NCBI GenBank assembly: GCA_017506865.1
Contig: JAFCMP010000445.1
Location: 310,001-374,000, forward strand
DNA from: Tribonema minus
Lineage: Eukaryota; Sar; Xanthophyceae; Tribonematales; Tribonemataceae
Length of the DNA: 64,000 bases
Direction: 5' to 3'
Positions 1,481-54,929 of the stretch are shown in pieces; within the stretch, counting starts at the first letter, position 1; the number at the start of each line of letters is the position of its first letter. Both the position numbers and the translations under genes were made by a program. The notes beneath the pieces were generated by a model that was not told where the DNA came from, ran no database searches, and saw only the letters and a list, made by a program, of their open reading frames with translations.

Positions 1481-1590
1481 CACGCACCGAGAGTGTGCCC
1501 CCAGAAGCCGCGCAGCACGCCCGCCGCGCACGTGTCGCTGCTCAGCTCGTAGCCAACGCGCCCCTCCTCCACGCCACGCCCTCCGCAACC
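1481..1590 (-). repeat. Exon echo: donor side of the DUF1415-like exon
   Basis: This stretch repeats the last ~100 bp of the exon at 1639-1900 together with its donor (CTCG|GTGCGTGGG on the minus strand), with scattered substitutions. Similarity fades just beyond the donor. Confidence 0.85.
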
Positions 1591-1638
1591 AACTACTGTC
1601 CTACTGCAACCTTTACGTCAACATGTTCCCCCACGCAC

Positions 1639-4532
1639 CGAGAGTGTGCCCCCAGAAGTCGCGCAGCACGCCCGCCGCGCACGTGGCGCTGCTCAGCTCG
1701 TAGCCGACGCGCCCCTCCTCCACGCCGCGCTTCTCGAGGCCGCGCGGCGCCGCGTCGACGCTGTGCGTGAACGGGCACACGCGCAGCCCCACGACGACGC
1801 GCGCGACCCACTGGCGCAGGCGCGTCACCGCGGCGCGCGCGTGCGGGTTGCCGCGCGCGACGGGGGGCGCGGGGGGGCCCGAGGGGCGGATCCTGAAGCC
1901 CTGCGTAGGGGAGGGGGGAGGGGGGGGAGTTTGGCTTGTGTTGATGAAGGCCCAGAGAGGAAAGAAGGCATTGGGGGGGGTGGAGTGTGTGAGTGTGTGT
2001 GTGTGGGGGGGGGGTGAGCTTGTAATGATGAAGGGCCCGAGAGGGGGGAAGGGGGGTGAGGGGGAGGGGGGGGCATGAGCGTCTGTTGATGCAGGGCATG
2101 AGAGGGGTGCGACATGTTTGCGGCCCTGACTCACTGGCAGACTCGCAACCTGACGCTCAGCACACCCACTCAGCTCGAGGCGCGCCGCGCCGCCGCTCAA
2201 AGGGCACCGCGAATGCCACGCGCACACAGCACCCCTAAACCCACCCCTGACCCAACCCTCAATTAAACCTTGAGTTGCGCCGCGTCGGGCGGAGCGTGAA
2301 GGTCGCGCGTACGGGGTAACGCGCACCTTGACTGTGACCCTGCGCATAGCTGTACCTTGAGCCCACATTGCGCCGCAGGGGACTCAAGCATCGAACATGC
2401 ATACGGCGTATCACTGACCCTGGCCGTCATCCTACATAGTTTTTCAGCAAACCAGTGCGAGCACCTTGAGGCGCGTGGCGCCGGCGGGAACTCGAACGTC
2501 GCGCGCACGGCGCGGAGGTCGGGCAGCTCATCGCCGAGCGCTGCTGCGGCGCTGGCATAACTGTCGCACAGCATCTCACGCATATGGGGAGAGTCACTGG
2601 ACTTGTTTTCTATGTATTCAGCACACCTTCGCACCTTGAGGCGTGTGGCGCCGGGCGGGAACTCGAACGTGACGCGCACGGCGCGGAGGTCGGGCAGCTC
2701 GTCGCCGAGCGCTGCTGCGGCGCTCGCGTAACTGTCGCACAGCATCTGCATGGCGCCCTGCTCGACGTCCGGCACCATGAGGATGACGTCGTGCACGGGC
2801 TCGGGGGTCTCCGCGGCGCGCGCCACCTCGGCCTGGGGGGTATGTATATATGCATGGATGAACATAGGGTAAGTAAGAGACAGCGTGTAGTCAAAGGTCT
2901 GAGGTATGTACGCATGTTTCTTTGAACATTGTAGAAAAGAGGAAGTGGACAGTCAAAAGTCAAGTGTGGAGGTAGGTATGCGCAAGCGGGGACTTGGCCA
3001 CCTGGGCGGCAGTGTTGCTGGCAGCCCTCTGAGAAGCTCCGTGGCGGAAGTTGTACTTGCTCTCTGGACCTTGCAGACTTGTGCGTTTGCAGTTGCAGCT
3101 CAGTGACACATCGCGCAGGAATTGATGCACTGTTGAAGTAGCGTACATCTTGAAGCTACAGGTTTTTCGTCCGTGAAGCGGAAACGAACGGGGTCCATGA
3201 CTGTGAGGACAGACGCTCTTTCTTATAGGCTTGTGACGAGGTCAAGCTGCATAGGCTACTTGATTATAAATCAGGTACTTGGAAGGATCTGGCATGTGTG
3301 TTGCGCTTCTATGGGCCCCCGCGCCACCCTCGAGGGTAGCGCAGTAGGAGCCGCGAGCAACAGTGCCCTCCACAAAGCGCCAGAGCTACAAATTGAACCG
3401 GCATCTCTGCTGATGCCATGAGACGCATCACATGCACAGATTTGTACAAGTGCTTGATCTGTATCGATGATATTGCTCAAGGTATGGATCCTGTAATGCA
3501 CTTGACTTCGCTCGAAATAAAGACAGGTGTTCGACAACCACGTAGGCTGACTGAGATCGAATACTCCTGCGCCCCATACCAGCAATGTGCAGCCAGCCAT
3601 GCTTGTCCGCGCACCTAGTTCAGAAAATTGTGTTGTGAGCCCATGCTGCAATGCAGCGCGCAGCTGTGCGCTCATGAGCCTACAGGACCAACGTGTGCAC
3701 ACACGCATATTTTTGACAGCACTGCTAGCAGCAGTGCTCAAGCTGGCATGCGTACGGCTGCACTGCTGGCGGGTGCCCTCGCAGCATGGCAGAAGCGCCA
3801 GTGAGTCTACAGCTGCACGCTTTGCTGCAGCATGTGCTGCGCGCGTTGTGGCGCAGAGTCAATGGCTAACAGGTCGTTGTCATGCGTGTGGTCGCGGTGG
3901 ACTGACCGCCTGCGTGATGTGACACTGCTCAACCTAACTTCAGCTTCTTTGAATCAAACTTCAAGTGCAGCCAAGGCGCGCTGGTGTGGCCTTGCGCGTA
4001 CAGCTCAGTGCGCGCGCTTGGTAGCATGGCGAGAGTGCTGCTTCTGAGGTGAACGCCAATACGCTTTCCGTTGCAAGTATAGTAAGCTATCAGTTGCCAA
4101 AACAGAAGATCATGTTTCCTGCCATACAACGGTCTTGAAGCCAGCGAAGCACATCAAGCCACAAGGCGCCATTTGGTATTCAGCAGACGCAGCAGCTTGA
4201 GCAGTAGCCGAGCGCCCCTCAGTCGTCGCCGCGGGCAACGGTCTGCTATGGCTTACTCGGGACGGAAATAGCGACGCAAAGCGGAAATGAAGGTGTATCG
4301 CCAGGAAACTCACCCAGAATGCAGCCGTGAGCGTGAGAACGTTGTCGCATGACGCCTCCAATATCGTGGGCGGGCTGATGGGCTCCTGACTAGGCAAGGA
4401 GATCGCAATTCCTGCTCCCACCCCCAGCACTGGTGCGCGCAGCCCATGGCTGCTGCTTTTGACAGCACCTAGGGGAGCGAACGCATGAGCGTTCCCAGCT
4501 ACGGCTGCAGACAGCAGATACCGCAAGCGCAT
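1639..4532 (-). CDS. Plastid-targeted protein with DUF1415-like segment, 3' end missing
   Basis: Three exons join with matching phases: 4314-4532 (ATG at 4532, donor TGG|GTGAGT), 2635-2832 (phase 0) and 1639-1900 (ends phase 1). Residues 1-20 form a signal peptide (MRLRYLLSAAVAGNAHAFAP) followed by AFAP, as in bipartite targeting to red-derived complex plastids. Exon 2 (66 codons, ending VTFEFPPGATRLK) is not recognised. Exon 3 contains TRLRQWVARVVVGLRVCPF, which resembles the start of DUF1415 proteins (a W, then GLxxCPF); its tail CAAGVLRDFW also fits. DUF1415 has no established function. The coding sequence must continue beyond 1639, but I see no further exon in 1-1480, so the 3' part lies outside or is lost. 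Linking the three exons into one gene is an inference from order, strand and phase; exons 1 and 2 could belong to a different gene. Confidence 0.55.
2267..2575 (-). repeat. Exon echoes: donor side of exon 2635-2832
   Basis: 2463-2575 is a close copy of the 3' half of the exon at 2635-2832, including the AAG|GTGC donor; 2267-2320 is a shorter, more diverged copy. Both lie in the following intron in the same orientation. Confidence 0.88.
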
Positions 4533-5945
4533 GGCGACTCACTGCTGCCGACGCTTGCTTGGTTATCTGCTTATCTACTGTGCACGCTGCACCTGAAGTG
4601 CTGAACCCTTGGATGAGGCACGCGCCTCTTCACCGACGCCATCGAGACGTCTGGAGCGACGTCGTGCCCTTGAGGCAGCATCCGCTGTGCCTGCTTTGCT
4701 GGATGCTGCTTCTTCCGACAACACAGCCTTCCAGCTTTGCTACAGTAATCCTTGGGTCCTGGCTCTGCAGTCTGTGGCCCCGAAGCGACAGCGGTGCACG
4801 ATTTTGTGCACACAGTTTGTGCCTGAAACCTTGCGCCTTCACACATCACATGGCGCACAGGTTGGCACCACAGCGTCGAACTTGAGGAAGTGCCCGCGCG
4901 CCAGCATCCGGCTTCACACGGAGAGAGAGTTGACCCGGAGTGAAGCCGTTACTTTTGCAGACGTGAACTCAACTTTGCATCCAAACCTTTTAGAAGAGAG
5001 AGACATCCAACACCATTGGCCGCCTGGAAGGACGCTTTCCAAATTCCACTGCAGCAGGCATTTTCCATCCACCAGACGCAGTGCACTATGTACCAAGTAT
5101 GCTCTTGTTGAATAAGGAAAGATGATCATATGTGGTAATTACACCATGCCTGTGTGAACATCCATCTCTGTGCACCAAGACTGTGTCTGACAGAAGGGTG
5201 TCAAGACTGATCAAAAGTCAAAAAAACGGTTGTTGATATGGTGTCAAGGGTTGGCAAGATGAGTCAGCAATGCCCGTAATCGAGTAGCAGCACAGTCAAA
5301 CCGTCAACACATGTGATAGAGCTGCAGGCATCATGTTGCCGGCTGCATGATGAAGCGCGTGCGAAGGGAGGACAAGTAGACCTTCGCATCACGTCGCGCA
5401 CAACAAGCACAGATGCAGCAGTGCAGATTCGACATCGACTGCAGCTGCAGCGCCACACGTGTGTACCACGCGCTTGCCATTGTCAGAGCTGAAGGTGCCT
5501 GTCGTACGCGCGTCTACTGTAGTGCCGCGCGCGGGCAGCATGCGCGCCTGCCCAAACATGCGGAGCCGCGCGTCCGCGCCGTGACTCATTGTCGCGGCGG
5601 ACGGCTTGTGTTTTTGAACATGAGCGTTTTGTACATCCATGGACCTACACGACAGATTGCGGTCCCGCACGCCTCTCCACGCGCCCTTCTTTGTGTCCTT
5701 GCGGCCAGTAACTGCAAGAGTACTGACATGTTGCGCTGCGCTTGTCCTTGCGGCTGCAGCACGAGTGCACTGCACAGCAACTTATCGAATGCGGGGGCCC
5801 TGGCCCCTTTTGCACAATAGAGAGCAGCGGCAACGCTCGGCAGCTGCCGCCAGCTGCAGTCAGAACCCAAACTGCCATGCCTCCTGCCCTGCGCGGGAAA
5901 ATCAACGCCGATACCCCAACCTCAACCGGCGACTCTCCGCGCCGC
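4533..5945. other. Intergenic region, nothing firm
   Basis: This lies between the start of the AFAP gene and the stop of the CRT-like gene, both on the minus strand. A 168-codon open frame on the plus strand (4609-5115) has no recognisable domain, signal or splice structure and I do not call it. Confidence 0.5.
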
Positions 5946-8900
5946 CTACATCTCATACTCAAAAGGCGACTCTCCTGCCTTCTTCCCCCCCTTCTTGCCC
6001 CCCGCCAGCGGCGGCCGCCCCGAAAACGGGTTCTCCTCGTCGCCCCCCGACTCCGCCTCCGACAGCGAGTCGCGGAACGCGACGCGCTTCTTGCCGCCGC
6101 TGTTGAAGTTGCCACTGCCACTGTTGAAGTTGTCAGCGGCGGCGGCGCGCTCGTCGATGTCCAGCAGCGGGCGGCGGCGCTCCTTGGCGGCGTCGTTGCT
6201 GTCGCCCTTGGTTGCGGGCGCCGCCGCGCGCGCGAGGCGCGGACACAGCGACGCGCCAAAGCGGTACAGCACTAGCCCGCCCATGATGGCAAAGAGGCCG
6301 ATGATGTCTGTGGACTGAGCGAGTGGAAGGGGGGGGGGAGAGAGCGATCACCGGAGATGGTACGGCGCGCGACGGTGGTCAGCGGGGGGGGGATGGGGCT
6401 GGATTCGACACGATGTGTTTGAGTTCTGTCACCCATAAGGCTTGAGTCCTGCTGAAGCTGCCACCTGAAGCTGTAAGTATTCGGCGGTATGCAAGTTAAC
6501 TGGCCAAGCGGCAGCTAAGCCTGGGGATTTGCTTACGGTACTGGCGGACTACTGTCTCATGACACGCTCAGTGTAGAGGAAGGCCCCAGGGTCCACGGCG
6601 CTACCTACATACCAGTGAAACTGAGCTGCATGCGTGCTCACACCAGGTGTGTGCTTATACAAAGCAGACGTTCATGCTGTGCAAAAACTTCAAGTACATT
6701 ATGCTCAGATATTCTGGGAGCGTTGCGTGCTAAAGCCATGGCTGATTACCATGTCGGCCACTGCTGAAATCGGCGCTGCACTGTCACGCCAGAGTTGGCC
6801 GTGCCGCGCGAAGCGGGTGTGCACACAATGAGTGTCATGTGATGCGCCAGTGCAGCAACTGTATACTTCGAAGTAGACTGATTCATACGTGTTCACGTTG
6901 GCGATGGCAATCAAGAGCACGCCGCGCGCGCCTGCAGCGGCGTGTGTGCGGGGATGAACGGCAGCGCCAACCGGCCTGTACGCAGCAGGTGATCATTACA
7001 GTACAGGTGCGTCAAGTGTGTGCTTGTCAGGACTCTGAAGCCGCCTCTTAAACTACCACTCCCCCCTACAAAGTAATCAATTTGTTGATGGTTGTCAGAA
7101 TCACATCAGGCTCACCTGCAGCGGCGTGTGCCCCGGGATGAACGGCAGCGCGAATGCGGCGTTGCCCAGCGCTAACACCTAGCCACTGAATGAATCACCT
7201 TTTCAAATTCATTTGATGATGGTATGATTGTCAGAATCACGTCACGCTCACCTGCAGCGGCGTGTGCCCCGGGATGAACGGCAGCGCAAACGCGGCGTTG
7301 CCCAGCGGCACCGTGATGGTCATCGCCATGAAGAGGATGTTGGCGCTGCCGTACTTGAGGATCAGGATGATCAGGATGTTGTACGTGATGCTGCAAACGC
7401 GCGAGGGGCACGTACGCCGCCGGTCATCATGGAAACGAGTCAAAAAAACGTAGAGCTTCAGGTGACAAGTGTGGCTAGCCGTCGAATTGAAAGCCTTCCA
7501 GCTGCTGCTGCAATTGGCCACGAGTCAAGCATTGCCACCATATTGTGATTTCTGGTACTTGACAAAGCCGATATTTTGCTGGAAGCTTGCAGCGTGTCGC
7601 GGTGCGATCGACATGCAGTTTGTGGTACAAGCATCCACAGAAGGGGTTCCCCAATCACGTAGGTTTGCTCAGGTCAGTCCACTTGACAATCAGGGACACC
7701 ACCAACATCGCTACCGGGCACTACCGTAGTTAGACACCTGGTACTTCAATGCCCTGCATCCCCTGCACCCAACAGACGTCTGTCAATCCCGCGGCCTGTC
7801 GCTCTTCCACACGACGCATCGCGCTCACTTGAAGATGAGGTGTAGCGTCACTCACTTGAAGATGAGGATGAGCGTCACATACAGCGGCCCGCCGGCCAGC
7901 AGTGGTCTGCGTACGGCCCCTCTTCCACGCTGTCGACGCCCACGTTGTCAACTTAAACATGAAGTTCAAACTCAGAGTTTCTGAAACCAACTAATGCCGT
8001 CTTTCATGGCAATCAAATCGGGCGATTCAAATCGGGGCCCAAACGCCCCTTTTAAATCTTCGCCAGCTTCGAACAAAAGTGACCTGGACTTTTGCGTGAA
8101 AATGAGGCAAACAGAACGGCCACGCAAATCGGGCACGGACTCTTCGAGGCGAACAGGCGCAGAACTGCTGACGTTTGCATGGCGCAGGCTCAATGCGGCG
8201 ACACCCGATCCATTTTGAATGGGACTTTTGTGCCCCATAAAAGATGGCTTAAACGCGCAAAACGGAACGACACATTGCACTCACTTGAAGATGAAGTAGA
8301 GCGTCACGTACAGCGGCCCGCCCGGCCAGCAGTGGTCCGCGTACGGCCCCTCCTCCACGCTGTCGACGCCCCCACGTCACTAAGTTCAACATGAAGTTCA
8401 GACTTGAGATCCTTCTCGACGGTTTCTGAAACCAACACAACGCGCAATACGGAACGACACATTGCCAGCACTCACTTGAAGATGAGGTAGAGCGTCACGT
8501 AGAGCGGACCGCCCGGCCAGCAGTGATCCTCATATGGCCCCTCCTCCACACTATCCACACCCACATAGCACTTGAGCCCGTCCCAGATGTTCTCGGGCAG
8601 GTGCAGGGGGTCGACGCGGGGGTCCCCAGCCATCGCCGCCGGCAGCGCCAGCGGCAGCGACACTGCGAACTGGAATATCGCCACCCAGCCGTTGAGATAG
8701 ATGGGGTCGAGCTCCGATTCGCCGAGTGCGATCTCCTTGTAGACGGAGGATAGTGCCATCGGCACGCACGAGAGGATCATAACGGTGGACCAGCCGAAGC
8801 TGCCGCCGGCGCCGCCGTCTGCCATGGACGGGCCCAGTACGACCAGTATGCCCAGGGCCACGGTGAACGCGCCCATGTACTGCGTGAGGGAGTATCTGCG

Positions 8901-11900
8901 GAGAAAGAGGTGGAAGAGGGAATGGGACCTGCGTCAGGCTTGAAGTCTGAGTCATCTTGGGCAACTCAAGGTCAGCACGGTGAATGCGCCCATGTACTGC
9001 GTGAGTACCTGAAATTCGAATGGAGTCAGAGTCTGAGTAAGTCATGATGACCAGTATGCCCAGGGCCACGATGAACGCGCCCATATACTGAGTGAGGGAG
9101 TACCTGGATTCTTTCAATGGAAATCATGCGAATGGAACTCATGTCCGGCTTGGAGTCACAGTCTGAGTGAGGCATTTCGGACAAACCGTGATCAGTTTGC
9201 CCGTAGCAATGGTGAAAGGCGCCCATGTACTGCATGAGGGAAACACCTGCTGGTAGAAGAGAGAATGATACTTGCACAACGATGGCCCGGCAGTCTGAGT
9301 TGGTCGTGATGCTGCGCGCACGTGTACTGGGCACTCAAGCAGCTTCTGGCTGACGGCCACGCAATCCCTTATTCACTCAATGTCAACATGTCCTTCACCA
9401 CGTCGAGCACTGGAGCACGCACGGCGCCTGCAGCAGCCGCTTGCTTATGGCCATGCTGATCCATTGTTCAACTATAACCATTATTTCGCCAGTATCAGTG
9501 GCCAGTGCCTGATGGTCATGTTGATTCAACGTCTGATTATAATGAATTACTTGCCACTATTAGTGCGCATTGAGCACGGCGGCATGCACTGCACGAGCAG
9601 CAGCCGCTTGCTGATGGCCATGCTGATGCACTATCGGTTTATCTATGACTTTAGATACTTCGCCATTATTAGCAACTATACTCAAGTAGCGAAAGACACC
9701 AATCATGTAGCACAATGCACTTGCCACCTTCCTCGATACAAGGAATTCATCGATAGCGAACACGGACACATAGCCACAGGGAATGTCGACGTACTACAAG
9801 ATTATGATGAAGTATACAAGCTAATGAAATTAGGCACTCAGCATAGAACTGACTTTTTCTTGGAAGGAGAGGACATATATGAACTAGTGTCTGACAAGTT
9901 ACAGCAAGTAGCAAGCACCTATGCATTCAGAGACCAGCAGTCAGATGCTAAATACTATCCATGGATCAAGGCCATACTGGCACCAATTGCGACACGATTA
10001 GTGGCACTTGGAGTACGTAAGCCAAACAAGCAAAAAGAGCCTACACAAGAAGATGAGGCAATTGACTTAAGTCAGGATGACATATCTACTCAGACAACTC
10101 AGAGTCAAAACCATCCTTACCACACAACAGATAACCCACAACAAGCAGGAAAACTGTTGAACAGCAACTACGTCAGATACATAGACACTATGTTGTCGGA
10201 TTTGCAGACAAAGCAGCCAAGCGGTTCACTGTAACGTGTAAGCACTGGTATGTAAGCAAATTGAACAACAGTCTTACTAAGCAGCAGTACATTCCACTAC
10301 CAAATGATTGGGATAAGACCGCTTGGGTCGAATTCAATAAGGAAAAACTGGCTAGTTGGCGTCTTTACCCCGACATGAAAGAAACTAAAATAGATGGGAA
10401 ATCAACCTGGGTCACGGTTGATGATCTTCCAACATTTTTTGGGGTATTGAAGTTACACAAAACTCCAACAGGTATACGTGAAGTAGCCAGCGTACAAGGC
10501 ACGCCTACTAGCTCAGCCTCTCGCTTCCTGGTACCAGCACTTCAAAGAATAACAGAAACGTTAAACTCAGTTTGGGCGCTGCTAGCGAATAAGGTTGGAA
10601 TAACCACACCTGAAGGTTCTTGGATCACCAATGATTCAGTACAAGCAGCACCCAGATTAAGGGAGATTTTCAAGGAACCAGAATGCAGAGGCAGGCCGTC
10701 CTACATACTTGATTTCAAAGCAATGTATAATCTTTTTGACCAAACAGACATGAGAAGCAAAATAAGGCAACTAATAGTAGACATGTTCAAGTATAACACT
10801 GGCGGTAGACTTCCGGAAGAAGGCGCTTTTCATGTCAGAGCACCTTCGACCACTAACAGATGGAATTCACTAGAAGTTGAAATGAACAAAAGAGTACGTA
10901 AAGGCTCTGAGAATGTTAAAACAGAAAGATGGAGCGTCATAAATAAAGAAGATGTAAGTCAACACAGAAAAGCATGTTGGTACGCTGATGCGGATACAAT
11001 AGCGGATTTAGCCGACCACATAATTGATAATGCAGTAGTGGCTTTCAGAGGAGCCAATTACAAACAAAAACAAGGTTTACCAATGGGCAATCCTTGCGCA
11101 CCACAACTAGCGAACCTATACTGCGCATACTACGAATTACAACTAGTCTTTCGTCGAGTTCAACTATATAGAGCAGATCCCACAGATTCAGAGAAAACAG
11201 TACTGATTTCGCTTTTCAATTGGGCTCGATATATTGATGATATACTGGCCCCAGGCCTCCCAAGTCACATTGACATAAATGACACTTTATACGATAATAG
11301 ACACCTACAGGGGGGTACTGACGGAATATACCCTGGACGAATGGCCATCGGGAACACAGACACATACATTGACAACCCTATGGAACTCAATCTAGAACAA
11401 TCAGGTACCACAGTAAACTATCTTGACTTACAAATTAAGGTAACAAACACTGAACATTTCACCATAGACCTATATGATAAACTGCGGCACATGCCTGTTT
11501 TGAAGGATTACATTCGATTTCCAACCATACACACAATACTTACCGACGAGATAAGATACGGAGTCTTTTGGTCCTAACTGTACAGGTTTGCTCGAATCAT
11601 CACCAAACCTAACGATTTCATGAACAGGGGCATATCATATTCCAGGGACATGTTCAGCCACGGATACTCAACATTCCGACTCACTATTAAGCTCAGACGC
11701 TTTAGCAAAAAATATGCCAAAGTACACAACAGACATCATGTCAATCACATAACAGAACGATTAGCTGTAAAGTTTTTCAGAATTATCATACGAAAAGTGA
11801 CAGCGACTAAGCAGAAATAAATGCGACTAGCGTATTTATTCTATATTCATGGCTATGAATCACTACAACCTAAGCTAAGTAGTGTGGCTCAAAGCTGTGG

Positions 11901-14900
11901 ATATGGTGCGTACGGGGAACCTCCCTGCAAATGGAAATGGGACTTTTCACCCCACTCTGGGGTGATCTGACCGTACGTACCACTCATTTTCTTCAACTTC
12001 AACTTGAAGTTTAGAACCTGAAACGGCCGTAACGGGATGTAACGGGATGTTACATCATGTGAATCATTGTATATGATTCGCCTATGCAGGGGAGCACATA
12101 TCAGTGCCCTACATAATCAATAAGTCGAAGAAAATAAGCTGTTACGCACCACATACGTTGCTTTTGAAATTATTGCTGACGGACAACCCGAGACGGAGCG
12201 AAAACTGGGTAGATGGAACTAGAGAAAGAGGTTCACACCTCTAGCGCGGCGAAGCTAGGGGACCAGACAAGGCTCCTGACACGCGCTCCACTGCTACGCT
12301 ACTGCTCCTAGGTGAGGAAAGGAGAACGCTACGGATAGCTCGTGCTAAACAACCTGGAGCCTTCCATGTCGCCGCATGGATTGGTTCAAAACCCGCGTCA
12401 TCACCTTCTACACTACGCGCATTCAAGAGCGCTGTCAATAGCTGCTGACCTCTGTGTTGGGCTGCCGGCTGGAGCTGGCCTACCGAACACGTGAGACCTT
12501 TCAAATACTGAACACCCATGCCTCGAACGCTAAAAGCAAAAGCTTGCACACAAAGTCATTTTGACTGGTGGATTACGGTGGTACTGTTTGACTCGTGGCC
12601 AATTGCTGCAGCAGCGGCGACCACGGTTATTGGTGGAAGGCACTTGCGGCTAACCATCCCTTGTCACCTAGAGCTCTACGATCTTTTGATTCGTTTTTAT
12701 TAGTGCGCTCCACGGTGATTCCTTGTCGGTCTATTGATGATTTTAGATACTTCGCCATAAATTAGTGCGCGTTGAGCGCTGGGGCACGCACCGCGCGCGC
12801 AGCAGCAGCCGCTTGCTGATGGCCATGCTGATTCGCTGTCGGTGTATCTACTGCTTTGTAAAGTACAATTTTGATACTTCGCCACTATGAGTGCGCATTG
12901 AGCCCTAGGGCACGCACCGCGCGCGCAGCAGCTGCTTGCTGATGGCCATGGTGATGGGTATCGCGGACTGCGTGAGGAGGATGACGAGCGGTCCGCTGAG
13001 GTATGTCGCGGCGAAGATCTGCATGATGGCTATGTTTTAATTCATTGTCCAATTGTAATGGATACTTTGCCACTATAAGGGTGCGTTGAGCACTGGGGCA
13101 CGCACCGCGCGCGCAGCAGCCGCTTGCTGATGGCCATGCTGATTCATTGTCCGTCTACTTATCAATAATCAAATACTTCGACACTATTAGTGCTTGTTGA
13201 GCATCGGGACACGCACCGCGCACGCAGCAGCCGCTTGCTGATGGCCATGCTGATGGGTATCGCGGACTGCGTGAGGAGGATCACGAGCGGTCCGCTGAGG
13301 TACGTCGCCGCGAAGATCTGCATGATGCCCGACACCCCGTCTAGCGCGCCCATGACGGCGAAGACGCGCTTGGGGACGCGCAGCTGGTCGGGCGTGATGG
13401 CGGAGCCGCAGCGCACCATCGGCACGATGTACGCAAAGCTGAAGGGGATGTAGACGAACGTCGTAAAGAGGTTCAGGAAGTTGGGGTAGTTCCTGGGGTG
13501 GGGAGGGGGGGAGGGGGGAGGGGGGGGGGGGGGGGGGGTCAGTGTTGACGGAGCCCGTGCGATTGATTCGCGGCGCAGGGGTGCGCACAGGATGAATTCA
13601 TCGTTTGCAGTTCATGATTTGCAACCTCAGCTGGCACGCAAGGTGGTGACAGCGAGCAACAGTCAGTACGGATCACGACGCGCAAATGCAAATGCAAATG
13701 GCTGTCTGCTGCCGCGCTGAACCTTGAAGTTGTGCATAGAGTTAGATCACCGCTCCAGCAGGCACGCTCACAATGCAAGCACGCATGCGCGACCTTTGAA
13801 AAACGTGGAGATTGCAGAGTTGAAGTGGGTGAGTGGCATACAACAGCTGGCTATTTGGTACCAAACAGGGGCAGCCACTGCCGATATCTGGCTAGCGCAA
13901 GCACAAGGTTCAATGAGGAGTATAACTTGAACCCCAAAACCGCAAAGCGAAAAGCAACCCCTGCAGATGTCAACGTACCACACTGTCTACCTCTGAGTCG
14001 TACATGGCTGAAATGGTGCAGCGCTGCCCGTGTGGGGTCGAGTATGATATTGCAACTTGAACACTTCATGTAGGATACAGTGATCAACTGTGGAAGGGCC
14101 CCGCTACAGTAGCATGGCCACATGATGCAGATCAAACGTTGCACTTCGAACACAAAGTACGAAAAAGTACTGAAACCAACATTCGCTAGCTACTGTGGTC
14201 ATGATGTAGATCAACACACGCGCGCGTTTGCGCGGGATTCAGGGATCGGCTCACCTCATTGGCACCTTCAGGCGATCGGCAAGCACAGGACAAACACAGA
14301 AGAGACGGTACAAGCACATGAATGAGACTTGAGGATGAATATGAACTGTTGGGCTGTGCCCCAGGTGTACGTCGTTCACTGTTTCTATAACTGTGTGTTA
14401 CTGCACTTTTGACACATCCCTAAAGCGTCCACATGTGCACGAGACTTAAGGATGATAATGAATTGTTGGGCCGTGCCCCGGATTGTATGCCGTTCACCCT
14501 TCCACTGTTTGTCACTGTTTGTAACAGCACCTTGAAACGTCAACCTCCACATGCATGAGCATATGTACATCACTGTCAGCAGCAAGCCGGAAAATGGCAT
14601 GCATGCATCGAAAGCCTTCACTTGCAATGGCAGCCCTGCAACAGTTGAGTGACTGACTGCATGAAACAATGAATGAATGAGAATATGAATTGAGGGGATA
14701 GAGTGAAGCTCTGGACTGAGGCCACCGATGCGGACTGCACCATCCATGAAATGTGAGCTGTACTTAGAGCACAGCGCAGCACCTCAGAGCAGTCTGTGGT
14801 ACACGAGCGGCATGTGCCAGACCGGCCAACGCTGACATTACAACATGTTCACGTGAAAGTCTCAGCCTAGAAATGGTGCTAAAATACACTTGCAAAGTCG

Positions 14901-17900
14901 CACCCAACGTGGCGGCCATCATTGCACTATCAATGCCACCAGCTTTGCATTCTGTGCGACGGCAATACTGTCCACAATACATACTAAAATAAGTGAAGAT
15001 GGCCTGGCACATGCTCAGTTGGTCCCGCCGTGGCAAAATGCATCAGTGCATCTGCTGACAAGCGGCAGTACGTCGGCACGCGCTTATCGCAACACGACAA
15101 TGAGTACACTGAGACATGTGCTCAGCAGCAAAAGTATATGGGGTGAGACCATTTTGCATTCTGTCCCACAGCCACCTGCCGTCAATATATATATATAGGT
15201 TCGATGCTCACAGCAGCATATTGAATGAATCAAATACCGACATGAAGTTCAAGGCAGACTTCATGCCATAATTTCTGTGGTTCTAAAGCACCACGTTGCA
15301 TCAGCAATATTGTGAACCCACAATGCTTGAGTCTAGCAGTGACATCAATTCCCCTCCTGACTTTTCGCAGCAAAGCCAACCATTGTGCGTACTGCGTTAA
15401 AGAAATGGCTCGTCTTTTCTCTTCCTCTGACCACTTTCCTTCGACGCTGGCATGGACCAAAAATCGGGGCGTTTGGCCCCCAATATATCTCGCCTGATTT
15501 GAAAGCCATAAACGTTGGCCTGAAACTCAACTTTTAGCCGATGTGACTACTTTGAAACCCTGTTGACTTTTCACAAGTCTTTGTTCCCAACAGAGCATTT
15601 TATCCTATATGACAATCAGACTTCCATACGCACCAGCTCATCGATATGAGCCAGGCTGTATCAGCGCTGGCGCAAGGATCGTGAGCAGCTATAGCCGCCC
15701 CCCGCCCCTGTCCCATTAACACAGCATTGGCCATGTAGCACAACGTCAGAACATCGTTGCCACTGGGTGACCTCACATGACGTCTCGTCAGCAAATCATG
15801 CAGAGACAGCAGTAGGGATACAACGCATGGATCACATACACACGACATCCTTTTCATTCAGGTCATTGACTCCTTCCAACCCCAGCCCTAACAATAAACC
15901 TAATCTAATCTTTTGTCTTCATTTTTCATCACCTCAGAGTACCAGTTATTTGTGCATCGGCACACTGAGGCTATCCGCCATGACACCAGCATACAGCTGC
16001 CATCGGCTGTGGTGGTGGGGTTTGCGGGCAGTTACGCACTTTGAAACGGCTCTTTGAGCAGCGGTCAGCATCAATGATGTGCCACCGTCAGTCATTGACA
16101 GAGTTGTGCGAACGTTTACATGAGGCAAAGCATAAGTGGCACGTCAACTTCAACTCACAACTGGCGAGCTTCAACGGTGGCGCACCGGAGTGCTTGCTCG
16201 ACGGTACCGCGCATGCGTCGCAGTGCCTGGTGCCACACGTGATGACTTCCGCAGCTACACCATGGTGTCTGTTGTACTTCAACTTCTTGATGGTCGCTCA
16301 GGGCGCGAAGGAGCCCGGACTAGTGCACATACCAAGCTTGCTACACGAGACTACATGTGCCCTTGTGGTCACACAGAGTTTCAAGGCTGATTGACAATGA
16401 CATCAGCAGATGCCCCCATCACCCTCTCTACACACTACATATCCGCCCTAAGCCTACGACTGTTGTACTTTGAAAGCTAACACTATCAGCGAGCAGTGGG
16501 CATAATGTCACAACATTCGTAATGTTTTTTACAAATCAGCTTTTGACGTCACATTAGGTCAACAGATTGATAACATAGAGGAAGTTTCTGGGAAGTAGCC
16601 GTCCACAGAGCGGACTCACCGTTTCCAGTTTTTGCATGATCTTATTCCCCAGCGACACAAACACCATCGCCACAAATGACAGCATGAGCCCCCGCTGCCG
16701 CCGCTTCACAATGTTTTCCTTTATGGTCTGAGCATCTGCCGTGTAATCGCCCGCCGCCTGCGCGCATAGAAATTTGGCACACGCAGTTTCATGTCAATGA
16801 TGCCATGCTCGTGTGCTATGTATGCACATCACTCTACTGAACAAATCATGCACATACTCTGAGGACTGTTGTATTTAATCGTCAGAGCATCCGCTGTGTA
16901 GTCTCCCGCCGCCTGCGCGCGTAAAGCCGTTCATGATCAATGGAAATGAATCAAAAGACCGTAGAGCTCTAGGTGACAAGGAGTGGTACGCCGCAAGTGC
17001 CTTTCACCAATGACCGTGGTCGCCGCTGTTGCAGTCATTGACCACGAGTCAACAGTGCCATCATGTCCACAGTAGTCAAAAGACGTCTTTTCAGATCAAT
17101 GGTGGCAAACTCATGCGCCATGTATCCTGTGCCATGCACATCACTTTACTGAAGAAGTTGTGTACATACTTCGAGGAATGTTGGTTTTATTTGACTGTGC
17201 GTCTGCCGTGTAATCGCCCGCCGCCTGCGCGCATAGAGCATTGCGCGCGTGGTTTCATATCAATGATACCATGCTCATGCGCCATGCATGCACATCACTT
17301 CACTTGGTCTCATGGTCTCTCATATCAGTGATGTCGTGATCATTGAAATCATGCTCATGCGCCACATATGCACATCACTTTGTATCAACGATATCATGTT
17401 TACTTGGTTTCATGTCAATGATGCAATGCTCACGCGCCATGCATGCACATACTTGAACGGAATCACGTTCTTCGAAGTACATACATCGAGGCATATTAAA
17501 ACTTTTTGGTATGTGCGCCTGCCGTGTAAGTGCTTGCTGCCACCGCGAGCAGGCTTTGCGCAGGTGGTGTTTAGATCATAGTGCTTCAAGCACATGTAGA
17601 CTACATGCATTTTTTTCACAGCGCTCACGAATGTTATCTGGTCATCTGTGCGTCTGCTGTGTGATTGCCGGCCGCCACTACATGCGCATGAAAAGGCATG
17701 AAGCATGCAATTTCAGCCCGTAATACCTTGTGCGCCACATGTACTTCAAGTGATTGGAGTAGAGAAATACCATGATGAGCACATGTCACACAACTGAACG
17801 GAATGTAGTACTTCAGTACAGTACCAGCAAATGGCTACTGATAATTGGCGACCTCAACTAGCAGATGTCGGCAGCCGCTGCCTGCACACGTGTGCATCAG

Positions 17901-18777: not shown

Positions 18778-19069
18778 GGTTCAATTTTTGGGTTGCAACC
18801 CAAGTTGAAACACGCGAAAGCGACGTGAAGCAGCTGTCGCGGGCGCAATCCGGCCCCTTGGAAAAAAACGCTGCTGCAGCTGACCTCACCACTGCCCCCA
18901 CACACTATCGCCCGCAGCTGATGCAAGAACTGCAACAGGTTGATTCCGCCTATCCGCCGGGCGAAACTTACTTGAAGTAAGTTGGGCTGAAGTCGGAGAG
19001 TCACCACAATTGAACTTCTGTGTTGTTCTGTGCCAGAAAGACAAACCTTGGGTACAGGCGCATCGCATC
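18778..19069. promoter_or_regulatory. Shared divergent promoter region
   Basis: These 292 bp separate the start codons of the CRT-like (-) and VTT (+) genes. It must contain both 5' UTRs and promoters; I see no clear TATA box. A CTTGAAGT copy lies at about 18970. Confidence 0.5.
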
Positions 19070-21181
19070 ATGAAGTGGGTTGCCGTGGCGGCGGTGGGGC
19101 TCACTTGCTCCTGCGGTGGCGCACTGCGTGTGCCAGGCAGCACCAGGAGCCTTTCGGCAGCACGTAGCGCCACATTCAGAAGCCCATGTAGAATTGGCAC
19201 CGATGCCGAACCTTGGCGACAGCTGCATCCGACAGTGCCGCCGCCTCCACGATCAGCGGGGATCTTGCAGTATAGGCCTAGTGGTGACCGGGAGGACGCG
19301 GTGGAGCGGAAGCAGCGGCTGAGAGCTACGGCGACTCCTGAACTTGTAGCAAACGATGAAATTTCATCGAATCAGACAGCGCTGATTGCAGGCGCTAGCC
19401 TGCTTGCGGTAGTTGTGGCGCTGGCGGTGGCGATTGGAAACTCTGGAGCAGGGCCAGATGGGACATTGCTGGATGGCGCTTTAGAGGCGCTGAGCCAGGT
19501 GGCCGAGGATTACAACCCGGTACACTTGCTCCAGTTGGCGGTCACATTCGTGAAGTCTCAGGAGGCAAGTCAGTTAACTGACCACGTCGGCTGCATGTTA
19601 TTTGGAGGACGACGCCGTATTGATTGACCAAGCAGCCGCAATGCGTGGCTATTGTTTGTGGCTGCTGTTGCGTGCCCTGGCCACACGCCGTGCTGCCGAA
19701 GACTGAATCTTCGTCGCCGGAGTAGCTGCTTGTGTTGTAAGACATTATTGGCTGTGGCTGTCCTAGAACTACTGCATGCACGCAGGTTCGGTAAATTGAT
19801 GCATGGTCCCACCTCTTCTGCCGCTATGTCAACCAGCACTGGTGTGATTGGCAAGACTGCCGAATCGGTTTTGTAGCTTAGGAGCTCCACAGCATCAAGT
19901 GCCGCAGTGTATGCAAAGCTGCACTTCGATCTAGCATGATGTGGGAGAGGTCACGTGCATCGTGCTTTCGGCAGATACAGCGTCGTCCAGGTCTTGATGC
20001 CTTCACAATGGCGGCTCACGTGCATGCCACGGTCATCATCTGCCTCTGATGTTGAACTATTGTGCAGTGATTGCGCGAGCTTCAAAGCTTGCGCTTGCAT
20101 TTATCATGACGGTCCATCTGCTTCGATCATATTCACAGAAGCTTGCACCAACTGTTTGCTGGCACCTTCCCCTGCTAGTGCCCCTGAGGCTGCTCTCCCG
20201 CTTCACCCCACCTTCAGGGTTAGGATGAGGGTCACGGTACCGCCTTTTGCCTTCTGAAGACTGCCTCTCGCAACGTGTACCCGTCGTGAGGTATAAAATG
20301 CTAGCAACCGCTGGTGCGGGCCTGGTCATCCACTGCTCAGTACAGGGAACCTCAACTTCACCCACATGCCCATGATTGCTGCTGTGTCAGCCATCCCCAC
20401 CTCCCCCGTGCTGTCAGCGGATACCGTGTGCTGCCTGAAATGCCAGCCTCATGACATGCAAGTCCCAGATCTCTCCGGGCAGTCATCACAGCGAGTTCCT
20501 AAGCACCCTCATGCGAACTGACCCCCCTCCCCCCCCCCCACAACCCCCACCCCACCCCCCCACCCCTCCCCCCTGCAGGCCCCCTGGTGCTACCTCTACT
20601 TTGGCCTCGTCTACGTCGTCGCGGAGGTCCTCGCGATCCCCGCGCTGCCGCTCACCGCGAGCAGCGGCTACCTCTTCGGCCTTGCGGGCGGGACCGCCGT
20701 CGTCGCCATCTCCGCGACCATCGCCGCCGCCATCGGCTTCCTCCTCGGCCGCACCTTCCTGCGCGGCTGGGTGGAGGGCGCGCTGCGCGGCGACGCGCGC
20801 TTCGCCGCGATAGACGCCGCCGTCGCGCGCGAGGGCTTCCGCATCATCCTCCTCCTGCGCCTGTCGCCGCTCCTCCCCTTCTCCCTCTCCAACTACCTGT
20901 ACGGGACGACCGCCGTCCCCTTCTGGGAGTATCTCGCCGCCAGCATTCTCGGCTTCCTCCCCGGCACCATCGCCTATGTCTACGGCGGCGACAGGCTGGG
21001 GGCAGCGCTTGACGCCGGCGGCGGCGGCGGCGGCGGCGCGCCGTGGTACGCGTACGCCGCCGGCGCGGCGGCGACGCTCCTCGCGTTGAAATTTGTGGGC
21101 GACGTCGCGACGCGCGCCGTGGAGGACGCCGAGCCGGGGCTGCGCGAGGGGGGCGGGGACGACGACGACCGTGGTGACTGA
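19070..21181 (+). CDS. Plastid-targeted VTT/DedA-like (TVP38/TMEM64 family) membrane protein
   Basis: Two exons: 19070-19564 (165 codons) and 20579-21181 (TGA), phase 0, 365 residues. The intron is GC-AG: exon 1 ends CAGGAG|GCAAGT, and the acceptor follows a ~55-bp C-rich tract. Exon 1 starts with a signal peptide (MKWVAVAAVGLTCSCGGALR) and a Ser/Arg-rich stretch, which fits bipartite plastid targeting, then a hydrophobic segment (ALIAGASLLAVVVALAVAIG). Exon 2 is a VTT domain: YFGLVYVVAEVLAIPALPLT, SSGYLFGLAGGTAVV, IAAAIGFLLGR, FRIILLLRLSPLLPFSLSNY, LAASILGFLPGTIAYVYGG, a final membrane helix and an acidic tail. VTT proteins are scramblase-like or transport proteins of the secretory system and plastids; the substrate here is unknown. 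The ATG at 19070 is preferred to the upstream one at 19010 because it directly precedes the hydrophobic core. Confidence 0.9.
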
Positions 21182-22828: not shown

Positions 22829-22926
22829 CATGAGGGACTGGGCATGTCGACAGTGTACAGCCTGTGTAGCACAGTGTCATGAGGGACTGGGCATGTCGAC
22901 AGTGTACAGCCTGTGTAGCACAGTGT
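22829..22926. repeat. Perfect 49-bp tandem duplication
   Basis: Two adjacent identical 49-bp units start CATGAGGGACTGGGCATGTC. The absence of differences implies a recent event. Confidence 0.95.
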
Positions 22927-29584: not shown

Positions 29585-49562
<19,978 letters not shown>

Positions 49563-50458
49563 TACATCATACAGTCATACCTTGTCCCTCTCTGTTTTTT
49601 CTTGGCAATGCATACCAATGGTGTGATTGATTCAAGCTTGCAGAGCTGGTGAAGAAGAACAAGGGGTTCCTGCTGTTTAGGGGCCGATAATACATCATAC
49701 ATACATACCCTATCCTTTGTGGCGATGCATACCGATTGTGTGCTTGTCTCATGCTGTCCAATTTCGCTTGCAGAACAACGAAGGTTAGCGGGCAGAGAAG
49801 AATGTACCGGCTGCGTGTTTGGGTCAAGCTAGTTCAAGTTGGCCTGCAGGACAATGAAGCTTCTGTGCAAATTGGACGCACACACGGGCCTTGTGTATTG
49901 TGTTTGGCTGCGCCTCTGCCATATCCCGCGGCCTGCCTGTTGGGCGTTGGAAACTGATGGTGCATGGCCACCGGGAGTGCAGGCTTGTGTGTGCGGCATC
50001 AGGGTTACTAAGCCTAACCCTAACCATACCCCCTACATTCCACCTTCGTTACACAATAGCTTTGTTGCCAAATAGAAGTGCGAAGCATAGTCATTACACA
50101 TCAGGGCGCAGTCAGGATTCTGCGGCGCCGTTGCTTCACCGAAAATCAATAGCAGCATGCGCTGAGCGTGGCAGCAGCAATGGCATACTCATGGCTGTTG
50201 CAAACGAAGCGCAGTGCCAAAAATGCACGCCATATACATGCGATGTCTCAGAAAATGTGGGGAAATACAATCCTGCAGTGTTTCTATGGTGTCTCTCAAT
50301 CTGGCATTGATCAGCACCGGCTTGCGGTCAATGGTACGGGCACTCACAACAAATTGAAACAACAAACACAACGCTTCTACAAATCATAAATGAGCACTGC
50401 CGCAAGCAGCAGTGCTCAAGCAGCAGTGCTCAGCACCAAGGCCGCTGAGACAGCGGCG
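49563..50458. other. MCM5 / cyclophilin convergent spacer with a terminal-exon echo
   Basis: 49636-49715 copies the end of MCM5: AGAGCTGGTGAAGAAGAACA through the TAA and the following ATACATCATACA. Just before it, CTTGCAG forms a possible acceptor. The rest contains a short telomere-like tract near 50010 and no gene. Confidence 0.88.
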
Positions 50459-53400
50459 CTACCGCTGGAAACGGTCGACCTTGCGGGCGCGCTGCATGCC
50501 CAGTATGAGCAATGCCACCGCGCTGACACCGCCGCCAAGCACCAGCAGCGACCGCCACTCCGGTGCCGGTGTGGCCGGGGGGGCGTCGGCAGCGCTCGCG
50601 TTGGGTGCAAGCGCGGCGTTCGCTGCACGACACGAGCGGCGGCACGCGGGTCGCTGTCAGCACCTGTTGGCCAACCGTCAATTTCTTCTGAGAAAATTGA
50701 AAAAAGGACAGTAGACGTTGGCTGCACCCGCTGCACTCGCTGCGCGACACGAGCGGCGGGACACGGGTAATGGTCAGCACCTCTTGAGCAACAGCCTTTT
50801 TCTTGGATAAAACAAATACTTCGAAGTAGCACAGAAGGGTTTGGTGGTGGTGCTGGCACATGGGATGACAACGGGGGGGGGGGTGTTGCAGTCGAGCCTC
50901 TCTTTGCAGAAGGGATGCTGCATCAGGCGCACATGCAATTCGAAATGACTGGCCTTTCACGCCCCAAACACAGTCAGCAGTGGCGGAAAAAAGGTGGTCA
51001 CTTTTCCTGAGATGAAGTCAGCAAGATGACACCGTCCCCTGTGTTTGCGGTTTCCAGCCTAGTGGGTAAAGCAAGAGGGAGGGACCACATATCTCAGTAT
51101 CTTGTACTTCAAGGTACCTTTGTAGCAGAGACCATCTGGAATCATCATAGTTGTACCCTGCGTTGACATTGTGACAGAGCTTGCAGTTATGAATCAGGCA
51201 GCCCCTTGTCTTGCAGCGCATCGCACACGCACCACTCACCACTTGAACTTACTTAGGCGCAGGGCATGGAGATCATGCGCGCCGCAGCAACAGCCCAGTC
51301 TGCTGATAAAGCAGATGGCAGCCATGCTAGGTACATTGGCGCTCCTACCTAAATGCCAATGTACCTGCCAATGCCCGTGCATACTGGCACCACGGTGGGC
51401 TTCGCAGTGTCGTCGCTGCTGTAGCTGATGCGCGCTGCGTGCAGTGAGCTCGTGGCACACCTGCGCCTGCACTGAAAGGGCTCCTCTGAGAGCAGAGTGT
51501 TAACACTGGCCCAGAGTCGGCATCAAAGAAGGCGCGCATTCATGCGGATGCGAGATGCTGCCCCACCACAATCCTAACCCTAACAACCGCCATAGCCCGG
51601 CGTGTTCACGTAACGACACACGGAGACGTCCGCAGCAGCAGTGGGTGTGGCTCAGACCAAGTGCCACTCTGTGCGGCCCCCACTTACATCGCAGTGGCCA
51701 GCAGTGCTTAGGGTTAGGGTTAGGGTCATTCGCAGGGCGAGTCCCAGCGCCCGATTTGCAGTACAACTTGCGTGCTGCTGCCAATACGCTGCATGTACAC
51801 TTGTCAAGAAATTCGAAATGCTTCTATGCGTCATTACTTATAGAGTGTACTCCTGCTTCTATGAAACAGCGGGGATGCTCGGATGAATGTGTTCTCATCG
51901 CACCTGTGGCGGACCCTCTTTGCACAGGCCGCCGCGGCGCTCCCACAATTGCGCACGACTTGATGTAATCGAGCTTTGGGAACTCGCGCCTGACGTTCAG
52001 GGAAATGAAACGCAGATTTTGTGTGAGCAGCATGCCGAAATAGGAACGACGGAGATGAAAGCACGTGTTGTTGCCATGGCAGCAGGGCTTAATGGTCTTT
52101 GAGTATACGGACCTACACCTGCTGAGAGAGTTGAATAGCTTGAGAAGCCCGCGCCTGACGGGCAGAGACAGAAACAACGCGTATGTGAAGCGCGCATGAG
52201 CACCTGCCTATTAACCCTGACCTAACCGTGATCCTAACCCTAGTTCAAGGCCGTAATAATTGGCCTAATGTCGCCCTCGCTTGCGGCAGAGAGGAAACCA
52301 CTTAGGCGGCGATGAAAGCACTGCGGTCGCCACTGTTGCTGAGGGGGTTAACGTTGCCATGAGTATGGCGGTCTGTCCCACAAAAGCGGGTGGTGGTGCG
52401 ACTGAGCCAATCACACGCATGCTGCGGAGGTGCAGGGCTAGTGTTAGGGCTAACCCTAAGGGTCCCGGCACGTCAAAGGGGGCGACTGCCCTGCTAAATG
52501 TGCACGAGCTATTTGACTCAGTGAGTAAAGCCAGAGTCGCCACAGGTGGTTCCGACGCAGGCAATCATCACTGATATTTGCTTGAAGGGTCACACGCGAC
52601 TCGGCGGTACTGTACGCTCTGGCCCACTGCATGCCGCAGCACAGCGCACTTTACGCGACTGTGCAACAGTGCCTGCGGGGTCACGAAACGCTCCCCTCAT
52701 AAGCACTTCAAGTTGCGTACTTCTACTTTAGAGTTCCTTGGACTAATCCATGCCGCAAAACAAGCATACATGATTTTCAAGCTAGCGGGGGCGCGGAAAA
52801 TCCACAATGACGCACCTGAGATACGCGTTCCCCTCCTCGTTGATGAGGTCCTGGTTCACGCCGGCGGGGTTGAACGGCTGCATCTCCCCATACCCATCGT
52901 AAAAACCCCTCACCACCTCGCCCATACCCCCCACCACCACCCCAAATGGCGTCTCCCACGGCGACCCCCCCAGGAACTCCGAATCCGCGTACGCGATGAA
53001 GAAGTCGGTGGCGCGCGAGTCATCGCCCCCCCCCGCGAAACTGACCATGCCGTCCTTGAACGGGAGGCGCGGATGCGGGCGGTCGTCGGGGAACTCAGGG
53101 AACAGCTCTGCCCACTGCGCGCACACGCCGGGCGCCGTCGCGCCGCACATGCCCGTCTGCACGATGAAGTCCTTGTCGACGCGGAAGAGCGCGAGGTCCG
53201 TCATGAGGCCGCTCGCGATCATGGCGACGAAGCGGTCGGCGCCGAGCGGGGCCCACTCGTGCCGCACCTGCACAGTCACAGAATTGGCGGCAGCGACGTC
53301 GGGAAGAAAAATCAGGTGCTGCGCGTTCAGAGTTGCACTTGTGAGGGTCTGCGATGGACGATTGTTGTGAGGCCGCTCGCGATCATGGCGACGAAGTGGT

Positions 53401-54929
53401 CGGCGCCCACTCGTGCCGCACCTGCAGGCTCATAACATTGGTGACAGCGGGAAGCAAAGTAGTTGCCACACGTAAAAGGTCTGCGATGGACGATCGTTGT
53501 GAGGCATCGACGGCAGCGGTGTCGAGGAGCTGCAGATCACGTGATGTGCTACGCATTGAGGTTTGTACATTGAAGGTCACTGCCACTGGCGTCAGTCGTC
53601 AGATGCTCTGGGTAATGGAGGCAGTCGGTGCGGAGACGGGCGCACTCGTTTGGCACCTGCAGACTCATGGCATTGGCAGCAGCGATATAAGGGAAGCAAA
53701 TCATCTGCCGCGCGTCGACATTTGTCTTGAAGCTCACGTGCAATAGGCAACACCTGGTAATAAAGCCGCTCTGGAGAATGCGGTTGCCTGCCATGCACCG
53801 CAGTGCGTGCCTTGAACGCCAATCGAGCCGAGCATCCCCACGGGGGTGCACAACCAATGATGTCGACGACGCGGCGAGCGCCGCGGGCACTGCGCATGTG
53901 GAGTGCTGCGAGTGCGTCATTGAGAGTTACAGTGCGTGCGTGAAAGCCACTCCGATTGCGCGAACGTCACGTGGCTGCATTTGGGTACGATGACAGGGTG
54001 GGTGGCGCCGCGCAGGGTCTCGCGCACCGCATAAGTATAGTATGTGTGTATGTGCACAGCATGGATAATGATCAATTGCGTTGACAGACAGGTTCGATGC
54101 TTTAAGGCATCCGTCACGGTGACAATGCGGTCAGCGCCACTTCGCAGCTTGCGGGCTCGGCAGCGGCAGGCGCACAATGGGACTGCGCAGTTTGGACTTG
54201 AAGTGCAACAGCTACTTGGAGGCTGGTTGAGATGAGCGCAAGAGCCACTTCTGAGCGTTGACGCCAATGCAATCATGCCAACAGGAGGCCCGCCTGCACG
54301 TCTCATGCTCAGCAGCAGTAGTATGTAGCGGCACCGTGAGTCACCGTTGCTATCAGCAGCAGCACCAGCACCAGCACCAGCACCAGCAGCATTGCACAGC
54401 AATGCTGTCAGGCTCCATTGCCTATTTAGGACGGTGCTTTCGCATCAAGCTGCATACTCATAATCTGCCTGAATGTCTTCTAAAAAACAGACACGTTGCA
54501 GGTGGTGGCACCGTGGTGCGCTGCAGTGTCGACACAGACGCAACACAATGAGCTCTGATCAACACGCGGTGCTGTGTGTCTGCACAGCAATCGAGCTGAC
54601 GTCTTCGACACACAGTTTGTCAGGCAGGGCACAATTCATTGTGCGACTAAACCTCGTGCGCCAGTGACAGGACTGGACAAATGACATCAAGGCGCCTCTG
54701 CTCTCACCAGCGTATGCTTAGGCTGATGGCTTCATCACATGATGTTTGTCAACGCCCTTACTTAAACATAGGCACCCTTGCTTACCTCTATCGCGAAGGG
54801 CATCGGAGCCGCTGTTGTCATGCACTCTATCGTGGTGATGGTCTTGTAGTTGGTTTCCCACCATCGATCCTCCTCGGCCGCGCTGGCGCAGAGCGCCAGC
54901 AGCCAATGCACCAGCAGCATCGCCAGCAT
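50459..54929 (-). CDS. Secreted, membrane-anchored cyclophilin-like protein
   Basis: Four exons: 54786-54929 (ATG at 54929), 52816-53267, 51904-51989 and 50459-50622 (TAG). Phases 0, 2 and 1 all match, giving 281 residues. Exon 1 is a signal peptide (MLAMLLVHWLLALCASAAEE) plus the first cyclophilin strand. Exon 2 carries VRHEWAPLGADRFVAMIASG, LFRVDKDFIVQTG, FFIAYADSEFLGGSPWETPF and GVVVGGMGEVVRGFYDGYGE, the peptidyl-prolyl isomerase fold of divergent algal cyclophilins; NEEGNAYLRREFPKLDYIKS is their usual C-terminal motif. Exon 4 adds a Pro/Ala linker, one transmembrane helix (SLLVLGGGVSAVALLILG) and a basic tail, making it a type I membrane protein. The normal active-site Arg (FHR/FFR) is present as LFRV; other active-site positions are poorly conserved, so activity is uncertain. 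The predicted place is the ER/Golgi lumen. Confidence 0.88.
50705..50790 (-). repeat. Exon echo: acceptor side of cyclophilin exon 4
   Basis: The stretch CGCTCGTGTCGCGCAG|CGAG on the minus strand repeats the acceptor region of exon 50459-50622, with upstream intron sequence also shared (GAGGTGCTGACC against CAGGTGCTGACA). Confidence 0.8.
52133..52172 (-). repeat. Exon echo: acceptor side of cyclophilin exon 3
   Basis: GCCCGTCAG|GCGCGGGCTTCTCAA copies the junction at 51989 and ~20 bp of exon. Confidence 0.8.
53367..53700 (-). repeat. Exon echoes: acceptor side of cyclophilin exon 2
   Basis: 53367-53462 closely copies the exon 2 head and upstream intron (CTGCAG|GTGCGGCACGAGTGGGC on the minus strand). 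53600-53705 is a more diverged copy. Both include the intron part GCTTCCCGCTGTCACCAA / GCTTCCCTTATATCGCTG. Confidence 0.9.

Follow-up and report, generated by a model that had tools for sequence, protein, structure and literature searches.

Exon-edge copies within the introns of an MCM5 gene

The window examined here, a 64,000-nucleotide stretch of Tribonema minus DNA (C445:310001–374000) from a genome of 158 Mb in 554 contigs, contains a plus-strand gene for the DNA replication licensing factor MCM5 (29648–49559), a minus-strand cyclophilin gene (PF00160) and a minus-strand DUF1415-like region. In all three, introns carry copies of the edge of a neighboring exon, which we term echoes; these lie upstream of the exon on its acceptor side or downstream on its donor side. 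When the window was compared with itself by BLAST (E ≤ 1e-3), 143 self-matches were obtained, among them 102 direct pairs less than 3 kb apart and no inverted pairs. The exon-edge copies described in the initial annotation are real.

The MCM5 gene was rebuilt by spliced protein-to-DNA alignment in 20 pieces spanning ~29.6 to 49.6 kb. The probe was human MCM5, and our conclusions rest on the rebuilt exons rather than on the probe. Our main counts use 17 of the 20 pieces, leaving out 33383 and 35559, which are short and spurious-looking, and 29648, the most N-terminal, which is still included in the MCM5 coverage, echo-edge and echo-base figures. The donor of exon 32687 was placed manually at 32835.

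Thirteen of the 17 retained exons bear echoes, all on the plus strand. Exon 30926–31187 is preceded by acceptor-side echoes at 30431–30823 (edges 30436 and 30573, with an extra head piece at 30774–30823) and followed by two donor-side echoes at 31276–31554, which belong to a plain 189-bp tandem unit; the interval 31087–31554 exemplifies a young tandem repeat in which exon and intron parts are both alike. Exon 32687 has acceptor-side echoes at 32331–32602 (edges 32407 and 32553), and exon 33740–33861 has a donor-side echo at 33947–34049 (edge 33974). Echoes flank exon 34964–35101 at 34602–34892 on the acceptor side (edges 34608 and 34836) and at 35190–35531 on the donor side (edges 35239 and 35376, with a third copy ending near 35531). 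Acceptor-side echoes also precede exon 36334–36469 at 35639–36208 (edges 35784, 35951 and 36107; head piece 35639–35700) and exon 37587–37672 at 37309–37361 (edge 37339).

An acceptor-side array at 38222–39149 precedes exon 39247–39438, with scored edges at 38366, 38551, 38740 and 38903, a fifth copy near 39063–39149 and units of 163–189 bp; within it a two-unit block has itself been duplicated (38518–38804 versus 39045–39311). Donor-side echoes of the same exon occupy 39532–39763, the copy at 39763 having lost its GT. Further downstream, exon 39982–40098 has an acceptor-side echo at 39843–39927 (edge 39890) and a donor-side echo at 40203–40290 (edge 40278), and exon 40953–41069 has an acceptor-side echo without AG at 40758–40789 and donor-side echoes at 41150–41429 (edges 41189 and 41424). 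Donor-side echoes follow exon 43301–43386 at 43524–43727 (edges 43539 and 43705), and acceptor-side echoes precede exons 46677–46788 (46473–46526; edge 46477; 94% identity), 47473–47581 (47311–47347; edge 47317) and 49418–49559 (49218–49289; edge 49243). Overall, AG or GT is kept at 26 of 28 MCM5 echo edges.

On the minus strand, the DUF1415-like region, whose DUF1415 match is weak and under its cut-off, shows the same arrangement twice: at 1479–1730, an exon tail (1630–1730) with a donor-side echo (1479–1579) of 96% identity, and at 2461–2747, an exon tail (2631–2747) with a donor-side echo (2461–2576) of 94% identity. The cyclophilin gene carries an exon head and two acceptor-side echoes (53368–53505 and 53618–53715) within 53204–53715.

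Local direct duplications across the genome sample

Beyond the window, we sampled twenty 10-kb stretches from four additional contigs, ten of them around MCM genes, and six 5-kb stretches from six other contigs, for a total of 294 kb with the window. Searched as 10-kb pieces, this sample yielded 398 direct pairs less than 1 kb apart and only five inverted pairs, a contrast that excludes chance as the source of the copies; 50 kb of Escherichia coli DNA gave six direct and no inverted pairs at the same distance. Coverage by pairs is patchy, ranging from 1% to 49% among the twenty 10-kb stretches. Most adjacent pairs (168 of 216) have units of 60–200 bp. In 82 of the 216 the alignment takes in 80% or more of the unit, and 76 of these near-full tandems fall within the same size range. 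Simulation of the search recovered planted units of 80–600 bp in 30 of 30 trials each, 60-bp units in 25 of 30 and 30–50-bp units in none, so the upper limit of unit size is real and the lower one is a detection limit.

The duplication process is not specific to exons, and the same process operates away from them in the sampled stretches. We compared MCM5 with five MCM paralogues, named here by contig (C156, C334, C146a, C146b and C1), considering only the conserved domain of each; 33 of 168 alignment exons were counted, picked by eye, giving 50 exons in the six-gene set. Among 70 adjacent pairs in these genes, 24 lie in introns alone, as does the ~101-bp unit duplicated at 41623–41818 in MCM5, to which no strand is assigned. 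Exon-touching pairs were in clear excess over a shifted-map control only in MCM5 (35 versus 18.7 ± 4.1) and C1 (16 versus 8.4 ± 2.9), with no clear excess in C146b (8 versus 5.0 ± 2.1), C156 (5 versus 4.3) or C146a (2 versus 1.6). The ratio thus spans 1.2- to 1.9-fold across the five genes that have pairs. The fraction of MCM5 exon bases under duplications was only slightly above expectation (0.42 against 0.32 ± 0.06; p 0.07). Overlapping pairs were treated as separate in the shifted-map controls and in the unit-part, codon-position and mismatch counts below, and because pairs share sequences they are not independent. Furthermore, conservation of the exon partner keeps exon-touching pairs recognizable for longer, as reflected in a mismatch of 0.105 between exon and echo and 0.151 between intron copies.

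These figures temper the initial annotation in several respects. Its statement that echoes fill the introns is too strong, since of the 17830 bases of MCM5 outside exons, echoes account for 1897 and all detectable duplications together for 31%. The tie that it drew to exon edges is likewise not supported, given the intron-only pairs and the restriction of a clear exon-touching excess to two genes. Nor do echoes occur in nearly every gene: the C334 paralogue has none at its seven counted exons, and no local duplication pair was found in the 6.7 kb compared. Pairs occur in each of the other five genes. Introns average 656 bp in C334 (L011, L012), the lowest mean among the six, and the highest mean belongs to C1, although six genes are too few for a trend.

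Geometry of echoes and their splice sites

Echoes accompany 27 of the 50 exons in the six genes (13/17 in MCM5, 4/7 in C156, 1/4 in C146a, 4/8 in C146b and 5/7 in C1), providing 30 acceptor-side and 28 donor-side sites. Their placement is strongly ordered. Of 74 exon-derived matches, 68 could be placed up- or downstream of their exon. Among 39 upstream copies, 30 reach to within 6 bp of the exon head, nine touch neither edge and none touches the tail only; among 29 downstream copies, 24 touch the tail, four touch neither edge and one touches the head only, at a distance of 7.7 kb. Heads upstream and tails downstream are what tandem duplication across one splice junction leaves behind, because the spare copy comes to lie in the intron. 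In 15 near-full tandem units, the exon and intron parts are both alike (pooled mismatch 0.090 and 0.149, respectively); in other units, similarity is left only in the exon part.

As the initial annotation held, the copies carry the splice dinucleotide of the edge that they repeat, with AG kept in 27 of 30 echo acceptors and GT in 23 of 28 echo donors. To score them, we trained weight matrices on the real sites (50 acceptors and 45 donors); parent sites are included, so echoes are somewhat favored. The median acceptor score was 7.1 for echoes, compared with 8.2 for real sites and 1.0 for other intronic AG, and the corresponding donor medians were 7.6, 9.8 and −1.4. Fourteen of the 30 echo acceptors and nine of the 28 echo donors (23/58) score at least as high as their own real site. 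Use of an echo would cause a frameshift or introduce a stop in nearly every case (29/30 acceptors and 26/28 donors). Exon definition presumably lets the spliceosome pass over these decoys.

Decay of echoes and their origin

Echoes decay near-neutrally, like neighboring intron DNA. In triples made up of one exon and two of its echoes, echo lineages changed 105, 89 and 134 times at codon positions 1, 2 and 3, and the real exons 16, 4 and 59 times. Mismatch between echoes (0.156) equals that between intron copies. Gap openings per kb rise from 8.3 between exon and echo to 21.4 between echoes.

We therefore consider it highly probable that the echoes stem from many short direct tandem duplications that strike introns and splice junctions alike, with the spare copy left to decay neutrally. 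According to this model, duplications of mostly 60–200 bp would arise in introns and across splice junctions. When the duplicated segment spans an acceptor, the copy on its downstream side, still attached to the exon body, would stay exon and the upstream one would become an acceptor echo; when it spans a donor, the upstream copy would stay exon and the downstream one would become a donor echo. The spare would be absorbed by the intron and then decay, and some arrays would extend by further in-register duplication. The favored source of the duplications is break repair, in which a staggered break or paired nick may be filled in and its ends joined. In 46 two-copy tandems, aligned length minus offset had a median of −5.5, versus 0 in an indel-free simulation, and no microhomology surplus was seen at the junctions, although most pairs are too diverged for these to be read exactly. 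The geometry, the neutrality and the decoy-site data uphold the original proposal that segments spanning a splice junction were duplicated in tandem, that this was tolerated since a single working junction is enough, and that the spare copies then decayed.

Several observations weigh against this model. Third-position changes are slightly in excess on echo lineages, and in GC-rich columns echo–echo alignments retain 21.5 gaps per kb, below the 32.9 of intron–intron alignments, a difference that is left over. When echoes were compared over equal lengths (15 pairs), the exon side was 0.82 alike and the intron side 0.59, with ~0.49 expected at random, and plain neutral decay does not predict such a difference; over 34 comparisons in eight families, exon-side likeness ranged from 0.66 to 0.98 with the intron side near random in such units. 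Only six of 188 adjacent pairs (at least 40 bp, less than 400 bp apart) reach 95% identity, fewer than a steady rate predicts; the duplication rate may have fallen, or young copies may be lost. Finally, adjoining copies frequently fail to meet exactly, which points to filler or to decay at their edges.

The sharp difference between exon and intron sides speaks for a rival explanation in which echoes are not neutral relics but are maintained, for instance as regulatory decoy or poison sites, through selection or through gene conversion templated by the real exon. Consistent with maintenance, AG or GT persists at 50 of 58 echo sites, many of which score like real sites, gaps are rarer in echoes than in intron DNA, and several MCM5 blocks stop 4–8 bp into the intron (by eye). 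However, echo-lineage substitutions are spread across codon positions, and divergence among echoes matches that among intron copies. Partial units are at least as common where there is no exon: 16 of 24 intron-only pairs are partial, with a spacer of at least 30 bp, compared with 18 of 34 exon-touching pairs. Given this and the agreement in substitution rates, we read the asymmetry between exon and intron sides mainly as ascertainment through exon similarity. Moreover, most synonymous changes peculiar to the real exon 39247 are missing from its echoes (by eye), and no AG or GT consensus emerged at the block ends of 211 pairs from outside MCM5, a weak test in which all end types are pooled. On the strength of the partial intron-only units and the codon-position and rate tests, selection, gene conversion or a process that copies exon edges is mostly rejected, and we regard maintenance as unlikely.

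Short tandem duplication with neutral decay also accounts better for the data than the remaining alternatives. Introns might have been born when exon segments bearing AGGT were duplicated in tandem, with echoes as birth scars of such Rogers-type gain, and five of the 20 MCM5 pieces do start with GT after AG, as that model requires. It predicts exon tails at intron ends, but tail-only copies are absent among the 39 upstream copies and the tandem units include intron sequence, leaving this origin very improbable. Slightly less credible again is the use of echoes as alternative or mutually exclusive exons. Their splice sites are near-normal, yet each counted echo copies a single exon edge with a single splice site rather than a whole exon, 55 of 58 would bring a frame shift or stop, and codon constraint is slight.

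An assembly artefact, raised as a concern because two small rDNA contigs seem rich in single-base deletions relative to known 18S sequence, so that base quality is uneven, is more doubtful still. Most copies differ by 5–30%, they lie in genes with open exons and the 294 kb contain no N. Reinsertion of spliced mRNA into introns would explain why echoes are exon-derived but is barely conceivable, as they lie on the same strand of the same gene close to their source, carry splice dinucleotides and in many cases include intron bases, and the one match of 74 that spans an exon–exon junction is the real exon 44797–44866 extended by 23 bp.

Other features of the sampled DNA

The MCM5 introns at 32230–32780 and 31250–31640 are rich in TTGATGTTTGAACTTCA and ACTTCAAATTTGAAGT variants (by eye), which form a finer second repeat layer. 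Interstitial telomere-like runs (TTAGGG/CCCTAA) form 68 clusters in the 294 kb, in both orientations, with none in one Markov shuffle; 37 bins contain 24 bp at up to three mismatches. Examples in the window lie at 860–896, 33527–33550, 36953–36977, 41478–41495 and 47347–47359. Their density is far higher than the figure for an early human genome build that is cited in a mammal paper, namely 83 loci of four or more telomere repeats (PMC7215372). A role for these repeats as filler at duplication edges was rejected, since 13 of the 68 clusters lie no more than 10 bp from an edge, against 17% expected.

Partly tandem direct repeats at 9401–9672 and 12710–13327 flank ~3 kb with open reading frames (ORFs) of 284 and 438 aa, neither of which has a Pfam match. 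This AT-richer stretch has a strong AT skew and is possibly a mobile element. On the minus strand, 55329–58907 encodes a 1192-aa ORF whose reverse-transcriptase domain (PF00078) is barely above the cut-off; no local pair among the window self-BLAST pairs falls inside it.

The two rRNA contigs mentioned above, L036 and L037 (C300 and C303), carry 18S sequence with many apparent single-base deletions relative to known 18S, which may reflect unpolished long reads there. This partial 18S contains a heterokont probe site exactly and one chlorophyte probe site with a single mismatch, whereas neither of two haptophyte probe sites is present at up to 4 mismatches; a pavlovophyte identity was accordingly rejected. 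Elsewhere, L038:1450–1765 (C157) is a partial 18S-like stretch (Rfam SSU_rRNA_eukarya, positions 1229–1474) within a contig at least 338 kb long.

Relation to known duplications and implications for intron growth

Introners occur as similar copies scattered among many genes. Like echoes, they bear on intron origin and expansion; unlike dispersed copies, those counted here, from local matches, match their own adjoining exon. Tandem genomic duplication is the closer parallel, reportedly studied by Rogers (1989), Gao and Lynch (2009) and Hellsten (2011), and as a known kind of event it answers the remark in the initial annotation that no named system of this type exists. Tandem, or internal gene, duplication, including units with an intron–exon boundary, is reviewed in a paper on intron gain in potato RdRp, which also mentions an 83-bp tandem duplication within an intron (PMC4974935). 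Tandem duplication within genes, also across intron–exon structure, is thus already in print. The likeness lies in direct, tandem, junction-carrying units within genes. The potato paper, in the passages drawn on here, concerns the creation of new introns in a few cases (PMC4974935), whereas in T. minus the exon set is unchanged and an existing intron takes the spare junction, at 27 of 50 exons and in some with four or more copies.

With respect to cause, fill-in and end joining at breaks with complementary overhangs has been proposed for small tandem duplications, the commonest short (<100 bp) insertions in human according to the same source (PMC8355091). Those duplications are likewise direct and local; they measure less than 100 bp in human, as opposed to units of up to ~200 bp here, where break repair is a mechanism that we infer. 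In the open-licence literature, judged by title and the start of the abstract, we found no description of genome-wide series of decaying junction copies. The interest of the present case lies in the density of the copies and in their near-perfect decoy splice sites, as seen in this single genome.

For those who annotate such genomes, echoes carry a warning, as gene predictors may call them as exons. The 36 exon edges with echoes in the six genes (18 acceptors and 18 donors) amount to a natural experiment on splice-site choice, setting each real site against its copies. More speculatively, and with considerable reservation, introns in this lineage might grow mainly by tandem duplications of about nucleosome size that favor transcribed exon–intron junctions, at almost no cost because a spliceosome guided by exon definition would always choose the site attached to the exon body and ignore decoys of equal strength. 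If general, the process would be a simple route of intron growth that leaves readable scars.

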